This document shows positions 15,532-32,326 of a stretch of DNA of 64,000 nt, in pieces. Under the pieces are notes generated by a model. It did no database searches and was not told the DNA's origin. It saw nothing but the letters and a program-made list of their open reading frames with translations. Source of the DNA: Gelidibacter algens (lineage in GTDB: Bacteria; Bacteroidota; Bacteroidia; Flavobacteriales; Flavobacteriaceae); contig NZ_LZRN01000001.1 of NCBI RefSeq assembly GCF_001678675.1, positions 124,001 to 188,000 of the forward strand. The letters are read 5' to 3'. Each line of letters starts with the position of its first letter. The first letter of the stretch is position 1. The position numbers and the translations under genes are program-made.

Positions 15532-16362
15532 TCAGCGCTCTAACTCCAGCAATTTTATATTTTTAAACTCTACCGGATGGCTCTCGCTTTGCAAAGAGAT
15601 ATAACCTCCTTTTATGGTTTCGCCTATTCTTTCTTTATATGCTTCAGTGTAAGCATCCATATCTGCCCCGCCGTATTGCGGTTTTGAATATCTCATTACT
15701 TCCTTCGTGTTGATTTTATGGATGATTAAAGAATCGTTGTAGACTTCAACTTCTAAATTGACTCACTGCTCATCGTAATACGTTTTGGAAGTTGAATTTG
15801 TACAATGCTCCGTAATCAGCTTGCCATCAATAACTACGTTGGTACCTGGTGTACATAAATTTGCTGTTGGCCTGCTTTCACCTTGGGTAATTCCTCCTAA
15901 CATTTGCACCTCAATGCTCAATGGAAAACTTTGGTCTTTAGCCATTTCTTTGGGGTCTTGACAATGAATCATGACACCACTATTTTTGGTAGCCCACCCA
16001 GAACCATCTTCAATTTGATCTCCGGTAAAACGGTATTGCAATCTTAATCTATAATTGGAAAATGGAGTTTTATAGAAGAGATGTCCAAAGGCATCATTGA
16101 ACTTTCCGTCATAGCCATCATAAACCACTTTAATTGCGCCATCTTCTACCCGAAAAGTGTTGTGAAGATTGTCGCCTAGATTGTAGCCTCTAATTTTTGG
16201 CGTCCATCCGTCTAAGTTCTTACCATTAAATAAGGAGATCCAATGTTCTGAAACTTTTTCTTCAATAGTGGCGTCGGGATTTTCAGTTTCGGGTTCTGAT
16301 CTGCAGCTAACGATTAAAAATGTAACCAAAGCGATTAAAAGGGAGCTGGTTGTTTTGTACAT
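15532..16362 (-). pseudogene. DUF1080 (3-keto-disaccharide hydrolase) lipoprotein with in-frame TGA
   Basis: A 276-residue reading if the internal stop is read through. A lipoprotein signal (FLIVSC, lipidated Cys20) precedes a DUF1080 jelly-roll domain: HWISLFNGKNLDGWTPKI, YRLRLQYRFTGDQ, NSGVMIHCQDP, IEVQMLGG. At 15763-15765 a TGA falls where the family has Trp (YYDEQ-stop-VNLEVEVYND). The frame then continues cleanly through GGYISLQSESHPVEFKNIKLLEL to the true stop at 15532, so one TGG to TGA change explains the break. Start ATG at 16360-16362 begins the signal peptide. Family members act on 3-oxidised sugars. It is the last gene of the minus-strand set with the GMC oxidoreductase, 16 bp from its neighbour. 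Confidence 0.85.
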
Positions 16363-16378
16363 AATGATGGGAATATTT

Positions 16379-16966
16379 TTAGAGCGACCAAGCTTTACCA
16401 CCTGTAGCTTCTTCTACAGAGATACATCCTTTTTGCTGCCCCGGAATGGGGTTATAAGCTAACACATTCTCGCCAATCTCCTTGCTCGTAATGTAGGCAA
16501 AAACCGTCTGATCACGTATGGTTGTTAAAGTCTGAAATACTAAATCTTCTTCTAAGATATATGCTAATCTTTGCGCTCGTGTAATCCTTAAATATTTTGA
16601 TAATAGCGATTCAAAATGTTCTGTTTTTAAAGCGAGTGGTTCATCGTTTAAAATCCCCAACTCTTCCATAACAGCATCTAAGCCCGTTTTATAGATTTCT
16701 TTTTCTTCGTCGGATATTGTTTTTGAGACAAATAGATCAATAAACTGTGGTACGTTAACATCTAAGGCTCCTGCAGTGTCCTTTGTTTTTGGCAAAATTA
16801 AGTCCACTAATTTTTGTAGGATATGCCCTTGTTTATTTGAAAAAAATAATGGTGTCCACTGTTCTGCATGCGATGTACAACTTTGAAGCATACTTAAGAT
16901 GGTAGGCGTGGCAATAACATACCCTAAAGATAAACCCAAACCTTTTAGTGCGTCTCTTCTATTCAT
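16379..16966 (-). CDS. Gluconate 2-dehydrogenase subunit 3 family protein (small subunit of GMC dehydrogenase)
   Basis: 195 residues, starting MNRRDALKGLGLSLGY with a twin-arginine pair and a hydrophobic stretch ending in a lipobox-like LSMLQSC. The rest is the all-helical hitch-hiker subunit of the gluconate 2-dehydrogenase subunit 3 family (VDLILPKTKDTAGALDVNVP, QFIDLFVSKTISDEEK). In FAD-dependent glucoside 3-dehydrogenases such a small subunit carries the Tat signal and escorts the folded GMC subunit across the membrane. Its start lies immediately after the end of the GMC gene (2-bp gap), which fits a two-subunit complex. Confidence 0.85.
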   Translation of the reverse strand: MNRRDALKGLGLSLGYVIATPTILSMLQSCTSHAEQWTPLFFSNKQGHILQKLVDLILPKTKDTAGALDVNVPQFIDLFVSKTISDEEKEIYKTGLDAVMEELGILNDEPLALKTEHFESLLSKYLRITRAQRLAYILEEDLVFQTLTTIRDQTVFAYITSKEIGENVLAYNPIPGQQKGCISVEEATGGKAWSL

Positions 16967-16968
16967 GA

Positions 16969-18660
16969 TTATGTGTTGCTTGATTTGAATTGTTCCACGG
17001 CATGCTGTGCAGCTCTGGCCGTTAACGCCATATAAGTCAATGACGGATTTTGGCAACCTGCTGAGGTCATACAAGCACCATCAGTAACATATACATTAGG
17101 TACGCCATGCACCTGATTATGGGCATTAAGCACTGAAGTTTTTGGATCCCTCCCCATACGTGCGGTGCCCATTTCATGAATGCCTATGCCGGGTGCGTAT
17201 CTCACATCAAAAGTGGTGACCTCTTTAAAACCTGCCTTTTCCAACATCTCGGCGGCCTGCTGTTTGATGTCTTCACGCATGATCAATTCATTTTCTTTCC
17301 ATTCGGCATCAAAGGTAATTGTCGGCAGGCCCCAATCATCCAGCTTATCATAATCCATGGTCATTTTATTGTCATGATAAGGTAAACACTCACCAAAGCC
17401 CATAATGCCCATACTCCAAGGTCCTGGTTTTAAAATCGCCTCCTTAAATTTTTCGCCATAACCTATTTCCGCAACGTGCTCTGAAATTCCGTTTCTGCCA
17501 CCGCCACCTTGATACCCATAGCCTCGCAAAAAGTCTTTACGTTCAGTGGCTTTATCACCTAAATTTCTAAATCGTGGAATGTAAATGCCGTTTGGGCGTC
17601 GTCCTTTGTAATAGTAATCCTCGTAGCCATCTACGATAGCGTTGGCACCTGCCCCTAAATGGTGGTCCATAATGTTATGTCCCAATTCACCGGAATCATT
17701 GCCCAAACCATTTGGAAATCGCTCTGATTTAGACTGCATTAATATGGAAGCCGAGGCTATTGCAGAAGCACAACAGAAAATAATATCAGCGCTAAAAACA
17801 TGAGTTTCCTTGGTTTCAGCATCGATCACCTTAACACCTGTTGCTTTTTTTTGGGAGTCGTCATAGATGATTTCATGAACAATGGAATGTGGTCTTAACG
17901 TCATGTTGCCGGTGGCATCCGCAGCTGGCAAGGTTGAAGCATTACTGCTAAAATAGGCGCCGTAAGGACAACCTCTAATACATCTATTTCTATACTGACA
18001 ATTACTTCTTCCTTTATGTTGATGATCACCAGTAATATGAGCAACTCTTCCTATAGTTAACAGCCGATCCTGGTAGTTACTGGCAAGTTGGGTTTTAAAT
18101 TCTTCTTCTACACAATACAACTCCATTGGCGGAGAAAAAATGCCATCTGGCAAATGCGGAATTCCGAGCGCTTCACCACTGATTCCAATATATTTTTCTA
18201 CATAATCATACCATGGGGCGATGTCATTGTAACGTATGGGCCAATCAACACCGTGGCCATCTTTAATATTAGCTGTAAAGTCTAAATCGCTTAAACGGTA
18301 ACTCTGACGCCCCCAAGTTAGAGAACGTCCGCCCACGTGATACCCTCTCACCCAATCGAAACGCTTGGTTTCATTATATGGATGTTTAATATCATCCACA
18401 AACCAATGTTTACTTTCTGCAGCGGTGGCGTAGCCTGTTCTGGCTTGTTTTTCTTGTCTTTTTTGCGCTGCTATTGTGATGCCGCCACGCAATTCCATAT
18501 CCCAAGGATCATCATGCATGGTAGGATAATCTCCATGTTTCACCATTCTTCCTCTTTCGAGTACCAAGGTTTTTAATCCATTCTCACATAGTTCTTTCGC
18601 CGCCCAGCCACCGCTAATCCCAGTGCCAATTACTATAGCGTCGTAATGTTCTTTTATCAT
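16969..18660 (-). CDS. GMC family FAD oxidoreductase (glucoside 3-dehydrogenase-like)
   Basis: 563 residues without a signal peptide. The N-terminal Rossmann motif (VIGTGISGGWAAKEL) and GMC active-site region (GIHEMGTARMG, then NPSLTYMALTARAA) define the family. Three Cys spaced C-x5-C-x3-C at residues 221, 227 and 231 (NCQYRNRCIRGCPYG) are typical of glucoside 3-dehydrogenase-like members and may hold an Fe-S cluster. The expected reaction is oxidation of sugar C3-OH to a 3-keto sugar, with electrons passed to a cytochrome not found in this window. It is translated just ahead of its likely Tat-escort subunit and faces the isomerase/Gfo-Idh operon across a 189-bp divergent promoter region. 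Confidence 0.85.
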   Translation of the reverse strand: MIKEHYDAIVIGTGISGGWAAKELCENGLKTLVLERGRMVKHGDYPTMHDDPWDMELRGGITIAAQKRQEKQARTGYATAAESKHWFVDDIKHPYNETKRFDWVRGYHVGGRSLTWGRQSYRLSDLDFTANIKDGHGVDWPIRYNDIAPWYDYVEKYIGISGEALGIPHLPDGIFSPPMELYCVEEEFKTQLASNYQDRLLTIGRVAHITGDHQHKGRSNCQYRNRCIRGCPYGAYFSSNASTLPAADATGNMTLRPHSIVHEIIYDDSQKKATGVKVIDAETKETHVFSADIIFCCASAIASASILMQSKSERFPNGLGNDSGELGHNIMDHHLGAGANAIVDGYEDYYYKGRRPNGIYIPRFRNLGDKATERKDFLRGYGYQGGGGRNGISEHVAEIGYGEKFKEAILKPGPWSMGIMGFGECLPYHDNKMTMDYDKLDDWGLPTITFDAEWKENELIMREDIKQQAAEMLEKAGFKEVTTFDVRYAPGIGIHEMGTARMGRDPKTSVLNAHNQVHGVPNVYVTDGACMTSAGCQNPSLTYMALTARAAQHAVEQFKSSNT

Positions 18661-18849
18661 AGTGTACTTTCCTTTTCAAACTATTATGGTCTACTAACGT
18701 AGAAGGAATAATCATAATTAATTAGGTGGTTGATACTTTTAAAGGCTAAACTTAATCAAATTAGTAGTAATCTGATAAAACTTTAGTATTTTCATGATAC
18801 TTTATTTTTTTAAAAATATTACTATGAAACCAATTAAATCAAGATCAAT
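18661..18849. promoter_or_regulatory. Divergent control region of the sugar-oxidation locus
   Basis: 189 bp between two divergently read operons; both sets probably start here. It is AT-rich. I could not identify a convincing -7 box or operator. Confidence 0.35.
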
Positions 18850-19821
18850 ATGACCAATAAGATTTTTAGAACTTTCTGTTTAACTTTTCTTGTAACAACA
18901 CTCTTAGTAGGATGTAAAGAAACTGCAGCAAAGTCTGACCAAGCGCAAGTTATGGTTGGAGACAAGGCGCCATTTTTTAAGTTGTCACTAGCACAATGGT
19001 CTCTACACAGAGCCATTCAAAATAATGAGCTGGATCCGATGGATTTTGCTGAAAAAGCTAAAGAAATGGGTTTTGAGGGGATTGAATACGTCTCGGGTCT
19101 TTATACAAAAAAGTTGGAATCTATGGGGATGGAAGCGCTTCTGGATTCTTTAAAAGCAGAAAGTAAGGCACATGGTATTGAAAATGTATTGATTATGATA
19201 GATGGCGAAGGTGATTTGGCAGCATCCGATGAAAAAGAAAGAAATATGGCCGTGGAAAATCATAAAAAATGGGTTGATGCTGCGCAATTTTTGGGTTGTC
19301 ATTCTATACGTGTCAATTTATTTGGCTCTAACAATGAGGATGAATGGACTTCAAATGCTACCAAAGGTTTGAAGCAATTGGCGGAATACGGTAAATCTAA
19401 AGACATTAATATCATCGTTGAAAATCATGGAGGTTTTTCTTCAAATGCCGAACTCTTGTCTAGTGTCATCAGAAATATAGATATGGATAATTGCGGAACG
19501 TTGCCTGATTTTGGTAATTTTTGTATGAAACGCGAAAGTGGGGGAAATTGGGACGGAAAATGCATTGATACATATGATAATTATAAAGGTATAGAAGAAA
19601 TGATGCCTTACGCAAAAGGGGTTAGTGCCAAGTCTTATGATTTTGATGCTGAGGGTAATGAAACCACATTGGACTATCCTCGGCTTTTAAAAATTGTCAA
19701 GGATGCGGGGTATACTGGTTTTGTGGGCGTAGAATTTGAAGGAAGCAACGTAAGTGAAGAAAAGGGGATTGAATTGACACGGAATTTATTATTGAAAATA
19801 GGTAAAGACCTCTCTAAATAA
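18850..19821 (+). CDS. Sugar phosphate isomerase/epimerase-like TIM-barrel lipoprotein
   Basis: 323 residues with a lipoprotein signal (TTLLVGC, Cys22). The mature part is a xylose-isomerase-like AP-endonuclease-2 TIM barrel: KLSLAQWSLHRAI, MGFEGIEYVSG, then IIVENHGGFSSN and VGVEFEGSN. Conserved Glu, Asp and His suit a divalent metal site. In Bacteroidota, exported versions sit with Gfo/Idh and DUF1080 genes in the oxidation-elimination-hydration route of glycoside breakdown, acting on 3-keto sugar intermediates. It leads the plus-strand operon (32-bp gap to the next gene). Confidence 0.82.
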   Translation: MTNKIFRTFCLTFLVTTLLVGCKETAAKSDQAQVMVGDKAPFFKLSLAQWSLHRAIQNNELDPMDFAEKAKEMGFEGIEYVSGLYTKKLESMGMEALLDSLKAESKAHGIENVLIMIDGEGDLAASDEKERNMAVENHKKWVDAAQFLGCHSIRVNLFGSNNEDEWTSNATKGLKQLAEYGKSKDINIIVENHGGFSSNAELLSSVIRNIDMDNCGTLPDFGNFCMKRESGGNWDGKCIDTYDNYKGIEEMMPYAKGVSAKSYDFDAEGNETTLDYPRLLKIVKDAGYTGFVGVEFEGSNVSEEKGIELTRNLLLKIGKDLSK

Positions 19822-19853
19822 ACACATATTAACTCATTTAAATCGTACAAATT

Positions 19854-21365
19854 ATGAGCAAAACTAATTATGATCATACAATTTCCAGGAGGAAATTTGT
19901 AGGAATGTCAATGGCTGCAACGGCGGCTTTTACCATTGTACCTTCTTTTGCGGTGAGCGGATTAGGTCATGTCCCACCTAGTGACAAGTTGAATATTGCC
20001 GGCATTGGCGTTGGCGGGATGGGTCTTGCCAATCTCAAACACCTGTCTTCACAGAACATTGTAGCACTGTGTGATGTGGATTGGAAATATGCAAGCGGTG
20101 CAGCTGCCACATTCCCCAATGCCAAAAAATACTGGGATTGGCGTAAGATGTTTGACGAAATGGGGAAAGACATTGATGCTGTTGTTATCGCCACTGCTGA
20201 CCATACCCACGCCATCATTGCGGCACATGCCATGACTATGGGCAAACATGTTTTTCTACAAAAGCCCTTAACCCATTCTGTCTATGAGTCGCGGTTATTG
20301 ACAAAATTGGCAAAAGAACATAAAGTGGCTACGCAAATGGGCAATCAAGGGGCGTCTGGAGAAGGCGTTGCAAAAACTTGCGAAATACTCTGGAGTGGTG
20401 CCATTGGTGATGTCAAAAGAGTGGAATCTTTTACAGATCGACCAATCTGGCCTCAAGGCTTAAATACGCCTGAAAGAGGAGATTGGGTTCCGCAGACTTT
20501 AGATTGGGACTTATTTACAGGTCCTGCTAAGATGAGACCTTATAACGAAGTCTACCACCCATGGAACTGGCGTGGTTGGTGGGATTATGGAACTGGAGCC
20601 TTGGGCGATATGGCCTGCCACGTTTTACATCCTGTATTTGAGGGCCTTCAATTGGGGTATCCAAGTAAAGTGCAAGCCAGTTCATCGTTGTTGTTAACTG
20701 ATTCTGCTCCGGTGTCTCAGGCCGTAAAATTAACGTTTCCTTCAAGAGGAACAAAAGGTAAAATAAAATTAGGCGAAGTAGATGTCCATTGGTATGATGG
20801 CGGTATCCAACCCATGTTGCCAGACAATTGGCCAGCAGGAAAAAATCCGAATAAATCTGGTGGAGGTACATTTTTCTATGGCACTAAAGACATACTTCAT
20901 GTGGGCTGTTATGGCATTGAGCCTGAATTATTGTCGGGCAAAACAATAGCTGCCCCTAAAACTGAACGACGCGTTGAAGAAGAACTCGGGTTATCTTGGA
21001 AAGACGGTGCACACGAAATGGATTGGGTGCGCGCATGTAAGGAAAACCCAGAAAGTAGAAAACCTACAACTTCTGATTTTGCTGAGGCAGGACCTTTTAA
21101 TGAAATGGTCGTTATGGGTGTCCTAGCGGTAAGACTTCAGGCATTAAATAAAGTTTTGGAATGGGATGGAGAGAATATGAGGTTCACAAACATTGGCGCC
21201 AATGAAGAAATTAGAACGGTCATCAAGGACGGATTTAAGATTGAAGAGGGACATCCAACTTTTAATAAAGATTGGACGGAGCCTATGAATGCCATTGCAT
21301 ATTCGCAAGAGCTTATTAAACACACCTATAGAGAGGGCTGGACCTTACCAGATATGCCGTCGTAA
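19854..21365 (+). CDS. Tat-exported Gfo/Idh/MocA family oxidoreductase
   Basis: 503 residues. The N-terminus has a twin-arginine signal (ISRRKFVGMSMAATAAFTIV). The NAD(P)-binding motif is IAGIGVGGMGLANL, followed by VVIATADHTHAIIA and GKHVFLQKPLTHS, where the usual EKP becomes QKP, common in this exported subgroup. The large C-terminal beta-sheet domain follows. Tat export implies folding with bound nicotinamide cofactor in the cytoplasm. In related loci such enzymes oxidise sugar C3 or work on keto-glycosides with the cofactor bound and recycled. Positioned between the TIM-barrel and DUF1080 genes, 55 bp ahead of the latter. Confidence 0.88.
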   Translation: MSKTNYDHTISRRKFVGMSMAATAAFTIVPSFAVSGLGHVPPSDKLNIAGIGVGGMGLANLKHLSSQNIVALCDVDWKYASGAAATFPNAKKYWDWRKMFDEMGKDIDAVVIATADHTHAIIAAHAMTMGKHVFLQKPLTHSVYESRLLTKLAKEHKVATQMGNQGASGEGVAKTCEILWSGAIGDVKRVESFTDRPIWPQGLNTPERGDWVPQTLDWDLFTGPAKMRPYNEVYHPWNWRGWWDYGTGALGDMACHVLHPVFEGLQLGYPSKVQASSSLLLTDSAPVSQAVKLTFPSRGTKGKIKLGEVDVHWYDGGIQPMLPDNWPAGKNPNKSGGGTFFYGTKDILHVGCYGIEPELLSGKTIAAPKTERRVEEELGLSWKDGAHEMDWVRACKENPESRKPTTSDFAEAGPFNEMVVMGVLAVRLQALNKVLEWDGENMRFTNIGANEEIRTVIKDGFKIEEGHPTFNKDWTEPMNAIAYSQELIKHTYREGWTLPDMPS

Positions 21366-21420
21366 TAAAAATAAGTGTTGGATTTTAAAAATTAATAATT
21401 CAATCTAAAATAGCAAACCA

Positions 21421-22194
21421 ATGAAAAAATTAAGTGCGATTGTAGTTTTTAGTTTAGCGTTGATGCCTTTGGTATCTAGCTGCAAAGACGAGAAAGAACA
21501 GACCAAAGAAGCAACCGAAACAGAAACCATCACTATGGATAAAAGTGAAGATGGTAAGGACTGGGTAGTTCTTTTTGACGGCACCTCATCAGAAGGCTGG
21601 CGAGGTTACAAAAAAGATCACTTTCCTGAAGCATGGAAAGTAGTGGATGGGACCATACATTGCGAAGGATCAGGACGGGGTGAAGCGGGCAATAAAGATG
21701 GAGGCGATATTATTTATGATAAAAAATTCAAAAATTTCACATTGAGTTTAGAATGGAAAATTTCTGAGGGAGGTAATTCGGGCATCTTTTATCTTGGGCA
21801 AGAGGAAGATCTAGATTATATCTGGAAAACGGCGCCGGAGATGCAAGTGTTAGACAATGACAAGCATCCTGATGCAAAATTAGGTATAGACAATAACAGG
21901 CAAGCGGGATCATTATATGATTTAATTGCTGCAAAACCACAAAATGCAAAACCTGTGGGCGAATGGAACCAAGTGGAAATTACCGTTTATGACGGCACTG
22001 TTGTCCACAAACAAAATGGTGTCAATGTGGTGGAGTATCACCTATGGACTCCTGAATGGAACGAATTGGTTGCAGGAAGTAAATTCCCGAAACTCAATGA
22101 AGATTGGGCAGACGTTGCCAACGAAGGTTATATCGGTTTGCAAGATCACGGCGATGACGTTTGGTTCAGAAATATTAAGATAAAAGAATTGTAG
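21421..22194 (+). CDS. DUF1080 (3-keto-disaccharide hydrolase) lipoprotein
   Basis: 257 residues with signal peptide and lipobox (LVSSC, Cys21), an acidic linker, then the DUF1080 concanavalin-like domain: WVVLFDGTSSEGWRGYK, LEWKISEGGNSGIFYLG, MQVLDNDKHPDAK, GEWNQVEITVYDG, and the ending GYIGLQDHGDDVWFRNIKI. The last signature is almost universal in this family. The intact partner of the TGA-interrupted copy on the other strand; the two belong to different subgroups. Last gene of the plus-strand operon, followed by a strong terminator. Confidence 0.88.
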   Translation: MKKLSAIVVFSLALMPLVSSCKDEKEQTKEATETETITMDKSEDGKDWVVLFDGTSSEGWRGYKKDHFPEAWKVVDGTIHCEGSGRGEAGNKDGGDIIYDKKFKNFTLSLEWKISEGGNSGIFYLGQEEDLDYIWKTAPEMQVLDNDKHPDAKLGIDNNRQAGSLYDLIAAKPQNAKPVGEWNQVEITVYDGTVVHKQNGVNVVEYHLWTPEWNELVAGSKFPKLNEDWADVANEGYIGLQDHGDDVWFRNIKIKEL

Positions 22195-22560: not shown

Positions 22561-23965
22561 GTTCTAAATCATTAATGTCCGATAAAAATTAAACCGGCTT
22601 GATTTTATTTTTTATCTATATGATTTTCAGTGCTTTGATTTATATCTTTCGTTTTTTTTGAAAAACAGGTCACAGATTAAATACTAGTTGTTCTGATTCA
22701 GCTTTGTCAATTATCCAATCCTTTTCGGGGTTTTCCAGAAATCTCATCAAATTGATGTAATTGAAAAGGTGGATTTTGCAGAAGCTGACCAAATTTGAAA
22801 ATGCCCAACTGCGCTTCAATCTCTTTTTAACCACTGCCAATAGCAGATTGACTATCAGAACACAATAAATTTGTATTTTAATTGCATTTTCATTATCTCC
22901 CAAGAAATATTTCAATGGAAAATTCTGTTTCAGCTGTTTAAACAGTATTTCTATTTGCCATCTTATTTTGTACAGGGCAGCAATTAAATCGGCGCGCAAG
23001 TCAAACAAATTAGTTAAAAATTCAAATTCTCGTTTGTTTACGCGGTCATAAAACGTCACTTTCCTCAATCTTAATTTCGATATTTCCTTGCCTTTTTTTA
23101 CATCAACTTCAATAATTTCATCTTCTAAAACTCCGTTATGGATCCGTTCCCCAATATCTAATTTTTCGATACTTAGATACGATGCGTTGTCTTTTATGCG
23201 AGTTACAAATCCTGTTTTATGGGCTGTAAAATGCTCAAAAGCCTTGTAATCATTATATGCCTTATCAAAAACATAAATGGTGTTCTCATCGCATTTTAGC
23301 TTTTCTAAAAATTTATGATCGTGTGTTTTGGCTTCACTGAACCAGACCAAGCTCGGTACGATTTCATCTGCGTTGATAACAGAATGTACTTTTATTCCCC
23401 CTTTTCTTTTTCCGCTTTTTGGATTTCTGCCAACGCAACCCATAATGTCCCTAAAAAGGCTAATTGTTGAACTGTCGAAAATTTTGACCTGCTTTATTAT
23501 GACATCTTTAATGCGGCTGTCCGATAAGAAACCACCATACTGTTTGAGCAATTGATGATAGATATTTTCAAAGACCAAAACATCCCTTTTCTTGTTTGCA
23601 TCAGATAAAGTACTCCTTTTGGGAATATGGTTTAGCTGAAAACTACTCGTTTTTCCCGATAGACCCAGCATTGCTCCAGATATTTCACGCAATGACGTGC
23701 ACTTTGAGAACGAACAGAAAAGCATACTTATCAAATGGTCCTTTGTGGTAAATCGCTTGGTGTAACGGTCTGAATCACATTTCTTGACCTCTCTTCTTAT
23801 CAAAGAATCATCTATTAAAGAAATCAGCTGTCCGAAAACAGATTTACTGGAAAAATAATTACTTTTACTCATCGTATTTTAGTTTTTTGCAACTCCAAAT
23901 TACGATTTTTTAAGAAGCCATTCATTTGGCTTCTTTTTTTATCGGACAACAATCTTATTTAGAAC
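22560..23965 (-). mobile_element. IS4-family insertion sequence
   Basis: One transposase gene between imperfect terminal inverted repeats. Left, reading inward, has GTTCTAAAT, a 6-nt spacer, then TGTCCGATAAAAA; right has GTTCTAAAT, an 8-nt spacer, then TGTCCGATAAAAA. About 1.4 kb in all. I see no direct target duplication at the two ends, so the insertion is old or its ends are altered by the adjoining palindromic element. Confidence 0.75.
22670..23872 (-). CDS. IS4 family transposase (DUF4372 N-terminus)
   Basis: A 400-residue DDE transposase. The N-terminal DUF4372-like region (SVFGQLISLIDDSLIRREV, then MLFCSFSKCTSLREISGAM) leads to the catalytic core: first Asp in KIFDSSTISLF, second Asp in YVFDKAYNDYKAF, and the IS4 Y-x2-R-x3-E-x6-K signature YKIRWQIEILFKQLKQ carrying the Glu. 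All three acidic residues and full length are present, so it may be active. It moves the element by cut and paste. Confidence 0.9.
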   Translation of the reverse strand: MSKSNYFSSKSVFGQLISLIDDSLIRREVKKCDSDRYTKRFTTKDHLISMLFCSFSKCTSLREISGAMLGLSGKTSSFQLNHIPKRSTLSDANKKRDVLVFENIYHQLLKQYGGFLSDSRIKDVIIKQVKIFDSSTISLFRDIMGCVGRNPKSGKRKGGIKVHSVINADEIVPSLVWFSEAKTHDHKFLEKLKCDENTIYVFDKAYNDYKAFEHFTAHKTGFVTRIKDNASYLSIEKLDIGERIHNGVLEDEIIEVDVKKGKEISKLRLRKVTFYDRVNKREFEFLTNLFDLRADLIAALYKIRWQIEILFKQLKQNFPLKYFLGDNENAIKIQIYCVLIVNLLLAVVKKRLKRSWAFSNLVSFCKIHLFNYINLMRFLENPEKDWIIDKAESEQLVFNL

Positions 23966-24243: not shown

Positions 24244-27200
24244 CTATTTGATGATAACCTTTTGTGTTTTAAATTGATTATCAGTAGTAACTTTTACCAC
24301 ATACACACCAGTACTTACACGCGATATATCCACCGTATTCTCAGTATTGTAAGGATTTAAAACGGTGCTTAGTACCAATCGGCCTTGTATATCATATAGA
24401 TTTGCTGTTGTTGCAGAAGTCAATGGGCCTCTAATTACTAAAGCTCTGGGCACTACCGTTGTATAGATCCGTAAGTTGTCATTGGACTGCATATCATCTA
24501 CTGACAGGGTTTTAGACGAATAGTGTACATTGAACCGCTCGGCACTATTTAAATTTGTAGTCGTATCAAATGTATACGCGTTAGCATTCAATAAAGTAAA
24601 CATATTATTTTGAATATCTTCCAAATAAACATTGATGTTGGATGGTATTGTAGAACCCTCATCAATACTGATGCTTAATTCAGTCCCCGCTTTCGCCTTG
24701 ATTCCCAATGGTATAATCACATCGTTAAAATCGTCATAGGGCAAAGACTGGATAGCCATATCAAGACCTGTATTGTCTTCTAGTAAACTGGTAGCTATTG
24801 AAAAATCGACTCTTGCCCCTGAAAAAGTAGCAGCATCATAGCCAGAATCCAATCCTTTTGTAGAGCCTTCAATAAAATAGATACTAGTAGAGGTATCCTT
24901 GGAACCGCTGCGCAGTTTGAGCTTGCTTAAAGCAACATTTCTCTTAACTTGCCTCCCAAGAATAAAGTCATCTGAAGTTCCTGTGGTTCTCATTTCTGGC
25001 ATAAACTTAACAATTCCTCCACCTAATTTAGATTTCACAAAAAAGCCCTGTCCAGGTGCAATCAATTGTGGCACTTCCGTAGCAATAGCACCGGCTAGAG
25101 TAGCAGAATTCCAAACTGTCCATCCATTTGAGAGACCAGTATAACCATATATGGCTTGATAGGCATCTCGGGAATCAAATTCAGCGGCATTGGCAGAAAA
25201 GAATGCATTAAAATCGATATATGAAGGATAGGGATTTCCAACAAGATTCCAAGCCTTGCCAAGAGGAGCATCAGAAATGACGATATCTACAGGGTTTCTA
25301 GTTGTCCGTCCTTTAAAGATCACAGAGTCGCCATTTAGGGTAGCAGCTCTATACCCCAAACCAGAAATAATCGGAATTTTTCCGCTATAATCGCTACCAA
25401 TATTAAAATTCTCATAAGCACCACTAGATACATTGTAGGGCGCAAATGCAAATTCTCCACGATTATTAATATTTTCAGCTAGCTTAGGATTTATAGTCAC
25501 GAAAGTCTGGTCAAAATTTGCCCCTTCTATAGGAGAAGAAATAAGATCATTGCCACCACCTGCTGAGGTTCCAATAACATTTACATGACGATTATAGTTA
25601 ACTTCGCCAGTTAACCATCCTTTATCAATTAAACTAGCAAAAGACATTGATGTCGAATTTAAGGTAAGCCCACTCTTTACGGTTAATATAACAGAGGTAT
25701 TCCCAATGGCATCTTCAATGGACAATGATGCACCTGGATTAATTGTCACACTTTGACATATCGTGTTTTCGGAAATTACGGCATTACCTGAATCAATTAT
25801 AATCTCATCAAATTGACCCGATACACCACTTGGATCCCCGGAAGACCAGGCACCATTGAAGGTATAGGTTTTTGGAATCTCTACATTTATCTGCAAGGTC
25901 TTTTCGCATGGAATGTAGTCTGTTTTTATAATTCTAATCTCTGCAGCGGAGGCTCCTTTCTCCTGATTTGAAATCGCTACCAGGCGCACGTATCTTCCTT
26001 GTTTTTCAGGGAAATTGACGGTCTTTAAATCTCGGTCAAAAGTCCATGTTCCATAAGCATCAGGCTCGGTATCCCAAATTGTAGATGAATCACTTACATA
26101 AATTTGATAATTGGTAATTGTACCGTTTATTACATTATCTTGGCGGGGTAGATACTCAAGACCTGACACAAATGAGCTCACACCTAAATCAATATGAATC
26201 TCATGAGGGGGTGCTGCTTTTGGCAGAGGACTCCATTTTGTATGCCAGAAGGTTTTACCGTCGCGATCAACTGCTTTGAAACGTTCGGCTTTTTGACCAG
26301 TCTCCTGCTCACTACTCGCATAAATTGCCACTAAATTCTGCGCCAAAGAAAATTTCTTTACTGCAAAATTTACTGTATAGAGCCCAGACTGCGTGATATT
26401 TTCAATGACATTATCAGAGAGCTGGACCTCGAAAGGATCAGACACCGTATAATCAATACCTTCCACGTCAAGGAAGAAGCCTACAGTATCACCTTCACGA
26501 ACTGTAATTTCTTTTCGACGACCGTCTCTGACCCCATTCAATTCAAATTCTAAAGCCACCTCATCACATGGCCCCTCAACATTGACAACATCTCTTTCCT
26601 TATTGTAAATGCTGCTAATCTCTTGAGCTGTAAGGGCAATGTTATATAATTTAAATTTATCCATACGCCCATCAAGTTCATCAGAAATACCACTACCGTT
26701 TGAACCTGTTGGTAGTGCACTGCGAAGACGTCTTTCATAAAAACCAGAAACTGTGAAGGTATTAAAGAATTCATCTGAAGTATTCATTCTTAGGTCACCT
26801 GACATTGGTTGATCACAAATCTTCTCACCATTAACATAAAGCTTCGCCCTCGCACCATCATACGTAGCTACAACATGCTCCCACACGAGAGGAGTGAAGC
26901 GTTCGTTTGTATAACAACTGAATATACCGTTAGTTGCATTATAGAATTCCAACTTGTATTGGGAACCATGATACCCAATAAAAAAAGAAGGATAGTCATG
27001 GGCAAAAATGGACACATTGGGTATATTATCAGCTTCATTTCTATTGACCCATGCCATCACTGTAATTTTATTCGTTAAGCCTTGTAATGCTGGTGATGGT
27101 GGAATTTCGAGGATCGAATTACTATTATGCTCCTTGCCATCCATTTCCAAAGCGTTTCCTGACAGTCCATTGGTACTCCAATAATTTTTGGTTAAAGCTA

Positions 27201-28875
27201 TTGGAATGCCATTATCATCACGTTCCTTCATGGTACCGTGGTTATCTTTCCCTGAGGTATCCATAACCAAAGCGCCACTGCCTTCAAAAAAATCATACTC
27301 TACCAGTAAGTTGTTTTCTTTAATTTTTAAATCAGGAGGGCTTACCAATACGGCCTCAGAAATACTTGGCACACCATCAGCATTTAGTGCGAACAGCATA
27401 TAATATCCCGGAGGCATCGTATTTGCATTAGGCATATTCAAATGATAATAGCCGTCAATTATTGAAAAAGTTACAGGAATGCGACGTTGTTCATTATTGA
27501 TACTGTGAGTTGCCGTAGACATTCTCAAAAAAGCAAATTCAGTAACGTCTGCCGATGCAATAACTGGGAATGCTCTCTCGTAAAAAGCATTATCAGGGGC
27601 ATTTAAACTAGGACGATCGGCCAACTCTCCAAGAGAATTAAATAAATAAGGTGGGCTATAAATTTCAGCATCTTTATGATTCGCAGGACAATGATCACCG
27701 CATAGGCCTCCTCCACCCATAAAGACGCGGCCATCAGCTAAAAGAATGCCGGCACTATGATAAGTTCTTGGGACTAGCATACTGGCCAACGGTATGAATA
27801 AATTTGTGGTAGGGTCAAACATTTCAGCAATTAAATGCGCACCTTCATCTGAAAAAACCACGGCATTTTCCATGCCTCCTAAAACCAAAACCTCTCCATT
27901 AGGGAGCACCACACTAGTAACATATATTCTGGCGTTTTGCATATCATTTAAGGTACGGGTTACGATAACATTGGCATCATCATTTATATCTATTACATAA
28001 GCCTTTTCATTACTTACGCTTCCAGAAGAATAAGATCCACTACCACCCACCTTTAAAATTTTGCCTATATCAAACATGACGGTGTTGCCATTCATCGATG
28101 AGGTGTCATCGCCTCTTGGACCAATTTCTACGAATGATCCTTTGATTGTCTCATTGCCGCCGTTAACATCAAACCAATGCATCGTCTCTCCTGGGCCTGC
28201 ATGAAAAATTTTTCCATTAGGAGCAGCGAATAGCCAAGCATGATTATCCAACCTATAAGTACCCTCTGGTTCTAAGGCAGCATCGTTAGCATTCCAAAGT
28301 AGTTCACCTTTTAAACCCTTAAGCTCAATCCATCCAGTCGCCTCCGTCCAAATTTCTGCATCTCTCCCACCATATGGACCACCACTCCACGAACCGCCAA
28401 TAGTAAAAGCAGAGCCATCAGATAAGGTTACGGCACCCTGATAGCCCCTCGGTATATTCAAGTTACCGGCATTAGTCCATTGTTCTGTTCTAGGATCATA
28501 AATACTGGACTTTTCATCAGAACTTCCTCCTGACACTAAGATTCTTCCATCTGCTAAGTTATTAATCCCAGGACAGAACATATCATGGTTGGTATCTGTA
28601 ACCGTTCTTGGCAACACGCCTCCTAAGCTATCTAAACCGCCTAAAGGATCAAATATTTGGGTGAACGTGAAGCCGTCATCACCTCCAAAATCGTGATGGT
28701 ATTTTGAAGACCATGTCACCAATCTACCATCTGGCAAATTAGCTACAGCGACAGGCACGATATCGAATTCAATTTTAGGACTCCATTGACCAACTTGCTG
28801 AGGGTCTTGAGAAAACCCTTTGAAACCTATAAATACTAACAGAAAAAAAACAGCGGAAAAATTTGAGGTTTTCAT
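24244..28875 (-). CDS. T9SS-secreted galactose-oxidase-like copper radical oxidase, multidomain
   Basis: 1543 residues from ATG 28873-28875, chosen because it begins a Sec signal (MKTSNFSAVFFLLVFIGFKG); an ATG at 28944 would add 23 residues. Residues about 30-515 are an AA5/galactose-oxidase kelch propeller plus DUF1929 domain. All radical-copper residues are present: Cys101 (DMFCPG), Tyr145 (RGYQGA), Trp163 (GGSWSGG), Tyr372-His373 (RTYHSA) and His457 (TATHS). The spacing matches fungal galactose oxidase (C228, Y272, W290, Y495, H496, H581). Then follow a LamG-type domain (about 525-760), a discoidin/F5-8C domain (about 860-1000), beta-rich repeats, and a T9SS type A sorting domain (LYDIQGRLVLS, GVYVVKVTTDNQFKTQKVIIK). 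It should oxidise a primary alcohol of a sugar or glycan to the aldehyde with release of H2O2 at the cell surface. Substrate not deducible. Confidence 0.88.
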   Translation of the reverse strand: MKTSNFSAVFFLLVFIGFKGFSQDPQQVGQWSPKIEFDIVPVAVANLPDGRLVTWSSKYHHDFGGDDGFTFTQIFDPLGGLDSLGGVLPRTVTDTNHDMFCPGINNLADGRILVSGGSSDEKSSIYDPRTEQWTNAGNLNIPRGYQGAVTLSDGSAFTIGGSWSGGPYGGRDAEIWTEATGWIELKGLKGELLWNANDAALEPEGTYRLDNHAWLFAAPNGKIFHAGPGETMHWFDVNGGNETIKGSFVEIGPRGDDTSSMNGNTVMFDIGKILKVGGSGSYSSGSVSNEKAYVIDINDDANVIVTRTLNDMQNARIYVTSVVLPNGEVLVLGGMENAVVFSDEGAHLIAEMFDPTTNLFIPLASMLVPRTYHSAGILLADGRVFMGGGGLCGDHCPANHKDAEIYSPPYLFNSLGELADRPSLNAPDNAFYERAFPVIASADVTEFAFLRMSTATHSINNEQRRIPVTFSIIDGYYHLNMPNANTMPPGYYMLFALNADGVPSISEAVLVSPPDLKIKENNLLVEYDFFEGSGALVMDTSGKDNHGTMKERDDNGIPIALTKNYWSTNGLSGNALEMDGKEHNSNSILEIPPSPALQGLTNKITVMAWVNRNEADNIPNVSIFAHDYPSFFIGYHGSQYKLEFYNATNGIFSCYTNERFTPLVWEHVVATYDGARAKLYVNGEKICDQPMSGDLRMNTSDEFFNTFTVSGFYERRLRSALPTGSNGSGISDELDGRMDKFKLYNIALTAQEISSIYNKERDVVNVEGPCDEVALEFELNGVRDGRRKEITVREGDTVGFFLDVEGIDYTVSDPFEVQLSDNVIENITQSGLYTVNFAVKKFSLAQNLVAIYASSEQETGQKAERFKAVDRDGKTFWHTKWSPLPKAAPPHEIHIDLGVSSFVSGLEYLPRQDNVINGTITNYQIYVSDSSTIWDTEPDAYGTWTFDRDLKTVNFPEKQGRYVRLVAISNQEKGASAAEIRIIKTDYIPCEKTLQINVEIPKTYTFNGAWSSGDPSGVSGQFDEIIIDSGNAVISENTICQSVTINPGASLSIEDAIGNTSVILTVKSGLTLNSTSMSFASLIDKGWLTGEVNYNRHVNVIGTSAGGGNDLISSPIEGANFDQTFVTINPKLAENINNRGEFAFAPYNVSSGAYENFNIGSDYSGKIPIISGLGYRAATLNGDSVIFKGRTTRNPVDIVISDAPLGKAWNLVGNPYPSYIDFNAFFSANAAEFDSRDAYQAIYGYTGLSNGWTVWNSATLAGAIATEVPQLIAPGQGFFVKSKLGGGIVKFMPEMRTTGTSDDFILGRQVKRNVALSKLKLRSGSKDTSTSIYFIEGSTKGLDSGYDAATFSGARVDFSIATSLLEDNTGLDMAIQSLPYDDFNDVIIPLGIKAKAGTELSISIDEGSTIPSNINVYLEDIQNNMFTLLNANAYTFDTTTNLNSAERFNVHYSSKTLSVDDMQSNDNLRIYTTVVPRALVIRGPLTSATTANLYDIQGRLVLSTVLNPYNTENTVDISRVSTGVYVVKVTTDNQFKTQKVIIK

Positions 28876-29280
28876 AATAGCAGGCATAATAGTTAGTAAA
28901 AAAGGGAGAGAAAAGTTGAAATAGTCTTGTCGACTTTTTTTCAACTCACGTTACAATAATTCATTTAAGAATAAATTAAATGGATTAGGGGCCCTTTAAC
29001 TTCCAAATAAACACACTTATTTTGACAATAAACTTTATTCAAGGTGAACAGCTAATATTATCGACAAACTATCTCAAAATCTTTAGTTTTAATAGTCCAA
29101 TGTCCTAGCTTTAAATTGTTTACGGATTGTTTCTATTTATAACGAAAATCTATCGGACACCATAATATTTTCGCATTATATAAAACAATTGAGAAGGAGA
29201 ATAACACTCTTGAAAACACTTTATAAGCTGTGATTCCAGTTAAATTTTCAGATCGCAATTTTGATTAAAATAGTACTAAT
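28876..29280. other. Intergenic region upstream of the oxidase gene
   Basis: AT-rich spacer between two minus-strand genes, expected to hold the oxidase promoter. No clear -7 box, RNA or terminator with a T-tail was found. Confidence 0.4.
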
Positions 29281-30701: not shown

Positions 30702-32304
30702 TTAGAGTTCTAAGATTAAAAATTCGGAATGTAAGGGATCAAGGTTTTGAACTAATTTTTGAATGATCTCTTCGCCATATTCCAAATAGAATTCTGAAAT
30801 ATTCATGTTTCGTTCCTGAAGGCTTTGGCCCGGAAATAATTCATCCTGTAACAGTCTAACGCGATCTAAAATATCATCTAATTTTCGCTTTTGGGCTTTC
30901 AACAATCGGTGCTCAAGGTTTTCAAGACCTTTAATTTGCTTCACTTCCTGAGCAGCAACAGCGCCCTTAAAAGATTTATCAGTTTGTTCTGCCAATAGGT
31001 ATAGGTCATCAAATTGTTTTTGGAGCTGATCTTTTTGCGGACTGAAATCAATGTTGATGTCTGAGATGGACTTGGTAACCTTAGTCATTAAATCATCCTG
31101 ATTCAAAAAAAGGTCGCCGACTGAGACATTCATTTTAGCAAGTTTTTCCTTTTGCTTTTCTGTGATGAGCAATACAGAGTTTCGCAAAAGAAGCATAGGA
31201 AACGTCACATTGTGAGATTCAAAATTAGACTTCAATTGCAACCAATACGCCAATTCTCCACCGCCGCCAATATAGCAAAGGTTAGGCAGAATAATTTCTT
31301 GATAGAGCGGGCGTGAGATCACATTAGGACTAAAACGTTTTGGATGTTTTTTAACCTCAGCAAGCAACTCCTCCTTAGTCCAACGGATGTCAGTATCCAG
31401 AACACCGTATACGCCATCAGTTTCTAAAATACGTTCTCTTAAGTTGTGGTTGATGTAAAACAGATTAATTGCTCTGGGGTTGACCTGTATTTTATAGTTT
31501 GAGGGTAGGGCATTAATATCTTCATTGGTTTTTGACACCACTTTAAAGGATGTTTGCTGGATCAATTCTTCCTCAATGTAGGGCGTGTAAAGCTTTTTCA
31601 ATAGGGCATCATTGCCATCCAAAATAACCAACCCATAAATTGAAAATAGTTTATTGACCAAAAATACGGGTGGCTTCTGTTAAGGTCGTATGTTCCAAAT
31701 AGGCTTGATGGAACAGTTTTTTTAATGATTTTGCAGTTTCGCTAGAATCGAGTTGTGCAGCAAACACATCATACACCTGATCTAGACCTTCTAAATTGAA
31801 TTCACCAACAGCACCAGAAGCCGCTCTGTTCCATTGTACTTTTTTCCCTTTAAAATTAAAAAAATTGATTTCTTCAAAATCATGATCCTCTGTAGCCATC
31901 CAATAAACAGGTACAAAATTATAATGGGGATAGGTCTCTTTCAAGGTTCTACACAAATTAATTGTGGAAATAATCTTGTAGAAAAAATACAGCGGTCCTG
32001 TAAATAAATTCAGCTGGTGTCCCGTGGTGACGGTAAAGGTTGAATTGTGTTTTAAGAGATCAATATTAGTGAGCGTCATTGAAGAAATACTCAAACCTTC
32101 ATACTGAATCATCAACGCCCTCACCAAATCGGCTCTGTAGTCATTATTAAAAGAGCGTTGTTTTTCTTCAATCTGCTTTTCAAAATTTTCAAGTTTTGGA
32201 AAGCGGTTATAAAATGGTTTTAAGCCATCTTTTTCATCCAAATAATCGATGATCAATGAAGAAAAATAATTTGTGTCTTTAAATGGGATACAATCGGTTG
32301 GCAT
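30702..32304 (-). pseudogene. bshC: Bacillithiol biosynthesis cysteine-adding enzyme BshC, split by a +1 frameshift
   Basis: BshC adds cysteine to GlcN-malate in the last step of bacillithiol synthesis. The N-terminal part (DCIPFKDTNYFSSLIIDYL, VTTGHQLNLFTGPLYFFYK, PVYWMATEDHDFEEIN) stops at 31651. The second part (LFSIYGLVILDGNDALLKK, LPNLCYIGGGGELAYWLQLK) is in the next frame, including the C-terminal coiled coil. Removing one base from the TTTTTGG run near 31664 joins them as ATRIFVNKLF and gives 533 residues, the usual length. ATG 32302-32304 is used as start; a TTG two codons upstream is possible. Start of the gene faces the M14 peptidase across a divergent promoter. Confidence 0.88.
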
Positions 32305-32326
32305 ATTCAAATTTAAAAATGAATTG

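Follow-up and report, generated by a model that had tools for sequence, protein, structure and literature searches.

The window, meaning the whole 64,000-nucleotide stretch of Gelidibacter algens DNA analysed here, carries a gene for a galactose-oxidase-like (GalOx) protein at 24244..28875 on the (-) strand, on which all features of this gene given below lie. The reading frame encodes 1543 residues plus a stop codon, with the ATG at 28875 and the stop at 24244, and is also open from a TTG at 28944 as an alternative start. Residues 1-23 (28807..28875) form a hydrophobic N-terminus and are a putative signal peptide, with domain matches beginning at residue 24. The galactose-oxidase catalytic part, a kelch propeller with an E-set domain, spans residues 24-512 (27340..28806) and was recognized by Pfam, phmmer, alignment and fold match; the Pfam family GO-like_E_set covers residues 421-510 (7e-15), and Kelch_6 was also matched. 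It is followed by a LamG or concanavalin-like module at residues 591-754 (26614..27105; Laminin_G_3, 591-754, 2e-19), for which the match to solved structures is weak (4qvs, 9e-6), and by a CBM32 (F5/8 type C, discoidin) at residues 851-985 (25921..26325), found by phmmer and by Pfam (F5_F8_type_C, 851-979, 7e-18, 65.5 bits against a cut-off of 28.2). A C-terminal region without a Pfam family, residues 1005-1480 (24436..25863), leads to a T9SS type A sorting domain at residues 1481-1543 (24247..24435), which was detected with both Por_Secre_tail (PF18962; 1487-1542, 3e-10, 40.7 bits against a cut-off of 27) and the NCBIfam model TIGR04183 (44.7 bits against a cut-off of 23). The LamG, discoidin and T9SS parts named in the preliminary description of this DNA are thus all present.

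The active site was compared by alignment with Fusarium galactose oxidase (1gof). Cys101 (28573..28575) corresponds to C228, the thioether partner, Tyr145 (28441..28443) to the radical tyrosine Y272, and Trp163 (28387..28389), within the motif GGSWSGG, to the stacking tryptophan W290. Tyr372-His373 (27757..27762) match Y495-H496, the axial tyrosine and a copper ligand, and His457 (27505..27507) matches the copper ligand H581. The six copper-radical residues had been said to align at nearly constant spacing, with the tryptophan placed as in the fungal enzyme, and the offsets of 127, 127, 127, 123, 123 and 124 confirm both statements. Arg208 (28252..28254) aligns with R330, the predicted galactose-binding arginine, a role given in PMC11267884. 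The AA5 residue set of Cys/Tyr cofactor pair, axial tyrosine and two histidines is complete on a kelch propeller with an E-set domain. Y207, F63, F341 and H212 are further kept in the places of Y329, F194, F464 and H334, whereas Q326, Q406, F441 and P463 of 1gof are changed to E204, S283, Y318 and V340; D324 of 1gof was aligned to N197. Neither the domain matches nor the residue match to the Fusarium enzyme are due to chance.

This residue pattern is shared by the relatives. Trp290 and Arg330 are kept in 32/32 flavobacterial rows of a first alignment (query included) and in all 23 rows of a second alignment covering three genera searched later. The two alignments together comprise 54 distinct flavobacterial genes, with L104 repeating L011, and over these genes Cys228, Tyr272, Tyr495, His496, His581, Trp290 and Arg330 are strictly conserved. 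Among the 43 genome and plasmid rows of the first alignment (query included), C228, Y272, Y495, H496 and H581 are kept throughout, and 37 rows also have both W290 and R330.

Searching the PDB with phmmer gave 9g8h and 9g43 as the best matches (9g8h, E 1e-147), together with Fusarium galactose oxidase entries (1gof, E 7e-119). Identity over the catalytic domain is 45.7% to 9g8h (466 columns) and 39.7% to 1gof (468 columns). According to the entry titles, 9g43 is a galactose oxidase of a bacterium, Pseudoarthrobacter siccitolerans, and 9g8h is a galactose oxidase to which galactose is bound; as the scores are identical, both entries presumably contain the same protein. An AlphaFold2 model built from seven sequences was of middling confidence, with a mean pLDDT of 61, and its best fold match was again 9g8h (Z 34.4, rmsd 3.1, 443 residues, 44% identity) in a VIA-align comparison that covered mainly residues 1-490 of this first model. 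A model of residues 985-1543 was poor, with a pLDDT of 52.6.

The Pseudoarthrobacter enzyme has the copper-radical set, W290, R330, F464 and the CBM32 type in common with the window protein, in addition to the catalytic identity given above. It carries a Phe where the window protein has Tyr329, and its CBM32 lies ahead of the catalytic part, whereas in the window protein this domain lies behind it and behind LamG. The 617 residues of the Pseudoarthrobacter chain are taken up by the CBM32 and the catalytic part, which leaves no room for LamG or a T9SS tail. The Fusarium galactose 6-oxidase (AA5_2) shares all catalytic residues as well as Y329, R330, F194 and F464. Its CBM32 is also located ahead of the catalytic part, while the window protein has it behind and adds a bacterial T9SS tail; the four substitutions at Q326, Q406, F441 and P463 further separate the two. 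The nearest solved relative of the window CBM32 by sequence is the N-terminal CBM32 of 9g43/9g8h, with 90.7 bits compared to 77.7 for a sialidase. A domain that is positioned behind the catalytic part, yet closest to the CBM32 of a galactose oxidase, suggests relocation. Streptomyces GlxA (4unm) has the AA5 fold and the first-shell residues in common with the window protein; PMC11022532 and PMC4736821 describe it as a copper radical oxidase tied to surface-glycan synthesis. It falls outside the galactose-oxidase clade and its Trp288 is flipped according to PMC13094651, in agreement with the earlier remark that GlxA differs at the stacking tryptophan. The window protein scored 124.8 bits with the NCBIfam GlxA model (NF052501), for which the cut-off is 800, and orthology to GlxA was ruled out by this score and by the tree position. 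Judging by a reference title alone, the AA5-CE3 fusion of Burkholderia pseudomallei is also a bacterial multi-domain AA5 alcohol oxidase.

The tree comprises 53 rows, among which fungal AA5_2 is represented by one sequence and fungal AA5_1 by none, and several outside rows are long-branched. The window protein falls in a clade of 32 flavobacterial sequences (support 100/99), which belongs to a 42-row galactose-oxidase clade (100/99) that also includes 1gof, 9g8h, two Streptomyces and six betaproteobacterial sequences. GlxA, the proteins of Nostoc, Marinobacter and Pseudonocardia and other AA5-like proteins are located outside, as are three proteins (L050-L052) that come from two further genomes of the phylum and have Gly in place of Trp290. 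The relatives outside the clade include Gly, Tyr or Ile in this column. The preliminary description had named placement in a non-catalytic kelch clade as the outcome that would speak against it; the phylogeny instead groups the protein with 1gof and 9g8h. Its characterization as a bacterial protein with a fungal-type site holds insofar as the site is of the AA5_2 type, which is the better name. Such a site is not new in bacteria, since the solved bacterial galactose oxidase 9g43 lies in the same clade, as do other bacterial members. As to a transfer between fungi and bacteria, 1gof, the single fungal sequence, nests among bacterial sequences within the clade with weak support (90/66), and bacterial monophyly without 1gof is not rejected (AU p 0.15).

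Genes on Cupriavidus, Paraburkholderia, Caballeronia, Comamonadaceae and Streptomyces plasmids also fall in the galactose-oxidase clade. The AA5_2-like proteins from the betaproteobacterial plasmids among them (L077-L079, L089, L090) are 47-49% identical to the window protein, and the three that were aligned (L077-L079) keep the Trp and Arg of the pair. Immediately upstream, a SCO copper-chaperone gene is found in Paraburkholderia and Caballeronia and a LysR regulator gene in one case (three of the five annotated); a link between Burkholderia and sco has already been published (PMC4736821). On a Haliscomenobacter plasmid (L083), a distant AA5-like gene directly follows a copper P-type ATPase gene.

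The substrate preference has to be weighed from these residues. In PMC11267884, the Trp290/Arg330 pair is described as the key indicator of galactose 6-oxidase activity, and loss of Q326 and/or Q406 generally, though not always, goes with lost galactose activity. The window protein lacks both glutamines, and so does 9g8h, which has G and D in their places. Therefore, from the kept W290/R330 pair and the precedent of 9g8h, a galactoside oxidase is expected, with an uncertain efficiency on free galactose. An alcohol oxidase with another preference, such as for aryl or aliphatic alcohols or raffinose-type sugars, would be in line with the replacements Q326 to E and Q406 to S and with two enzymes described in PMC11267884, namely AstAAO, which keeps the Trp and yet oxidises aryl alcohols, and PruAlcOx, which keeps the Trp/Arg pair and has mixed activity. 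It is nevertheless unlikely in view of the retention of W290, R330, Y329, F194 and F464 together and of a CBM32 of the galactose-oxidase type. An inactive kelch lectin that has retained the pocket solely for binding is very improbable, as the seven key residues are strictly conserved over the 54 genes and the tree position also opposes it. This reading has no direct support, the closest being large kelch/malectin proteins that were found beside Wzc in two congeners scanned and are described below.

The window protein is thus likely to be a secreted copper-radical enzyme resembling galactose 6-oxidase, of the AA5_2 kind. The copper-radical residues with W290/R330, the position in the galactose-oxidase clade, the fold match to 9g8h, the CBM32 type, the T9SS tail and a T9SS translocon component in the same genome, where SprA_N matches were found elsewhere (G000:C14), all point to such an enzyme, while the replaced Q326 and Q406 and a model pLDDT of only 61 may count against a galactose oxidase. 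The protein would be exported by Sec, then translocated by the T9SS via its C-terminal tail and attached at the cell surface. Copper would be bound by Tyr145, Tyr372, His373 and His457, and a Cys101-Tyr145 cross-link under Trp163 would serve as the radical cofactor. CBM32 and LamG may hold a glycan, so that the C6 hydroxyl group of a terminal galactose or GalNAc would be converted to an aldehyde with release of H2O2.

A sugar-oxidation set consisting of a GMC oxidoreductase, a GFO/IDH/MocA oxidoreductase, a xylose-isomerase-like protein and two 3-keto-disaccharide hydrolases is encoded at 15763-22194, and a DDE/DUF4372 transposase gene (22670-23872) lies between this set and the GalOx gene. 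The proximity to a sugar-oxidation locus pointed out in the preliminary description is therefore physically correct. Clustered homologues of the GMC, GFO and 3-keto-hydrolase genes are absent from the stretches read around Gelidibacter and Winogradskyella relatives (L008, L057-L060), and a functional link to these genes was rejected for this reason. Recent transfer of the GalOx gene, as judged by composition, was also rejected: its GC content of 40.1% and GC3 of 31.4% are inside the range of 14 window genes (GC 36-45%, GC3 31-42%) and thus give no compositional sign of it.

For the relatives, neighbour genes were clustered by BLAST and one representative per main cluster was scanned for domains. 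Three settings were found. In the Gelidibacter setting, an arrangement that resembles inherited synteny, the GalOx gene has genes for a PLP decarboxylase, bshC and an M14 peptidase as neighbours; in some relatives, a second GalOx, T9SS-tailed CBM32 proteins or a GSDH-type sugar dehydrogenase adjoin. In the window, bshC (30702-32310, (-) strand), a gene of bacillithiol synthesis, is split into two overlapping frames, one of 219 and one of 319 residues. The gene is a single intact frame of 548-554 residues in four relatives, so that the split is a frameshift, either real or made by the assembly. Directly downstream of a Winogradskyella GalOx gene, a protein is encoded (L008, 6105-10271) in which a GSDH-type sugar dehydrogenase is joined to ricin-type lectin repeats and a Big_2 domain, with an F5/8 match under the cut-off. 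The second setting consists of a divergent ECF sigma factor gene and genes for DUF2807 proteins. The third is a capsule locus with genes for a CpsB/CapC phosphatase, a Wzz/Wzc-like chain-length protein with an ATPase domain, a Wza-like export protein (Poly_export), a WbpM-like dehydratase (Polysacc_synt_2) and a DegT aminotransferase; gene names such as Wzc, Wza, WbpM and CpsB serve here as labels based on domain matches.

One explanation is that foreign galactose-rich glycans, such as algal galactans or glycoproteins, are oxidised for attachment, for nutrition or to release H2O2 against competitors. It is favoured by the LamG and CBM32 modules, by the T9SS-tailed CBM32 proteins and the GSDH-type dehydrogenase near the Gelidibacter and Winogradskyella relatives and by the ricin-type lectin fusion in Winogradskyella. 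However, a scan of 20 window ORFs between 8968 and 41952 gave no match to SusC/SusD or to a galactanase family, and the adjoining sugar-oxidation genes are not conserved beside relatives. Overall, this explanation falls a little short of an even chance.

The capsule setting leads to a different explanation. A search with the catalytic domain at a threshold of 1e-20 gave matches in 5 of 9 genus, 16 of 397 family and 5 of 395 phylum genomes; each count includes the window genome. Several genomes carry two or three GalOx copies. When the search across the family was run again around G142, it covered the same genomes and added nothing, and a contig scan with a single sequence as query returned four loci from close relatives only. 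The genus and family searches yielded 20 GalOx genomes with 25 GalOx loci, and at 9 of these loci a Wza gene is located no more than 10 kb away; with 1-3 Wza genes in each genome, 0.23 such loci would be expected. The nominal probability of 6e-13 treats the loci as independent, which is contradicted by their kinship. Two changes suffice to account for the capsule label in the tree, and a topology that unites the labelled sequences in one clade is not rejected (AU p 0.09); hence, the capsule-side loci are not independent and share one or two origins. Searching three of these genera further revealed Wza within 10 kb in 9 of 12 additional GalOx genomes (all but G780, G782 and G784), G785 being left out as the genome of L011, and all of these genera were already known for the capsule setting. 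Altogether, seven other genera contribute 19 capsule-side loci, of which that of G082 is known from its coordinates only. Two GalOx genes are present in nine of the 19, and some loci lie at contig ends and are possibly incomplete.

As a control, 17 of the 27 GalOx-less genomes of one genus (g75) were used. Wzc was found in all 17, and the order Wzc-Wza-WbpM-DegT is present in all 17 stretches, in which GalOx gave no match at 1e-5. Since these congeners keep the locus order, GalOx is an optional addition to a stable capsule locus. It is inserted in two places, either beside Wzc towards CpsB or between WbpM/DegT and an epimerase block. In 3 of the 17 controls, the place beside Wzc is held by a protein of about 2,700-2,900 residues, with CpsB outside those stretches; the two of these proteins that were scanned (L114, 190-8997; L125, 3-8216) combine kelch with malectin domains and gave no match to an E-set. 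The capsule-side GalOx genes are often accompanied by sugar 4-epimerase-like and nucleotide-sugar dehydrogenase-like genes. None of the epimerases reaches any of the curated equivalog cut-offs listed, and the one dehydrogenase scanned passes a nucleotide-sugar dehydrogenase subfamily cut-off. In G782 (L107), ECF-sigma genes on one side of GalOx and a capsule epimerase/dehydrogenase-like block on the other possibly result from recombination between GalOx copies.

It is conceivable that the family acts on a capsule or exopolysaccharide which the cell itself makes and exports, and that the window copy keeps this role from a distant genome site, a reading that is held tentatively. C6 aldehydes would be formed in galacto-configured residues as the polymer exits, which may lead to cross-links, altered adhesion or a uronic-acid step. 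The nearness to Wza in both samples, the paired GalOx genes, the intact locus order in GalOx-less congeners and the epimerase-like and dehydrogenase-like neighbours all favour it. A parallel may be seen in Streptomyces, where GlxA and CslA together make up a cellulose synthase complex (PMC11022532), and in Stigmatella, where fbfB adjoins a glycosyltransferase gene (PMC3543389). On the other hand, much of the association could be explained by inherited synteny, because the loci are not independent, and the additional genomes all came from genera already known for the setting. The ECF-sigma setting is conserved likewise, and 16 of the 25 sampled loci are not beside Wza. The window GalOx gene itself is on C1, the three Wza genes found in its genome are on C62, C16 and C11, and it is thus not capsule-linked; the same applies to all eight rows of its Gelidibacter/Winogradskyella clade. 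An action on the cell's own capsule would consequently extend to the window gene only by family resemblance.

The C-terminal region is similar to the C-terminal part of RemA (8gl6). Two other T9SS-tailed proteins encoded in the window's genome (L054, 12065-18943) share the last 540 residues at 42-43% identity; they adjoin gmd and a gene for an UpxY-like antiterminator scoring just under its cut-off, on a contig that also carries one of the Wza genes. This recurrence is a weak further hint of a link to the cell's own glycans.

What is new in the protein sequence is the CBM32 behind the catalytic part, the LamG module and the T9SS tail, to which the capsule-locus setting of the sister-genus relatives is added. 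No T9SS-exported or capsule-linked galactose oxidase is described in the titles and abstract starts listed by the literature searches, and no literature pairing galactose oxidase with the T9SS, or with capsular polysaccharide and Bacteroidota, was found there. The same literature, to which most subscription papers do not belong, contained no publication on the Pseudoarthrobacter galactose oxidase. By analogy, a flavobacterial GalOx-type enzyme exported by the T9SS might oxidise the cell's own new capsule and might have arisen apart from GlxA-CslA, with the window enzyme as a multi-lectin member; this proposal is somewhat doubtful. If it is true, copper-radical finishing of self-made glycans would be a recurring bacterial strategy, and a third phylum would have a copper radical oxidase tied to a glycan of the cell's own making. 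According to PMC11267884, it is in general not known on which substrates copper radical oxidases truly act in vivo, and a capsule-linked, optional AA5_2-like family with close relatives that lack the enzyme makes this question directly testable. In addition, the family would supply new galactose oxidases with which glycans could be labelled.

Two further loci show unusual gene structures. In G802 (L091, 7764-9911), a GalOx that is 65% identical to that of the window has an open frame of only 716 residues and is followed by a separate 1004-residue frame that clusters with GalOx/CBM proteins, as if a multi-domain protein had been split. In a genome of another family (L050, 6486-16322), a 2501-residue AA5-like frame has Gly at both the Trp290 and Arg330 positions, and the second gene upstream of it encodes a GMC oxidoreductase that is 26% identical to the window GMC protein.
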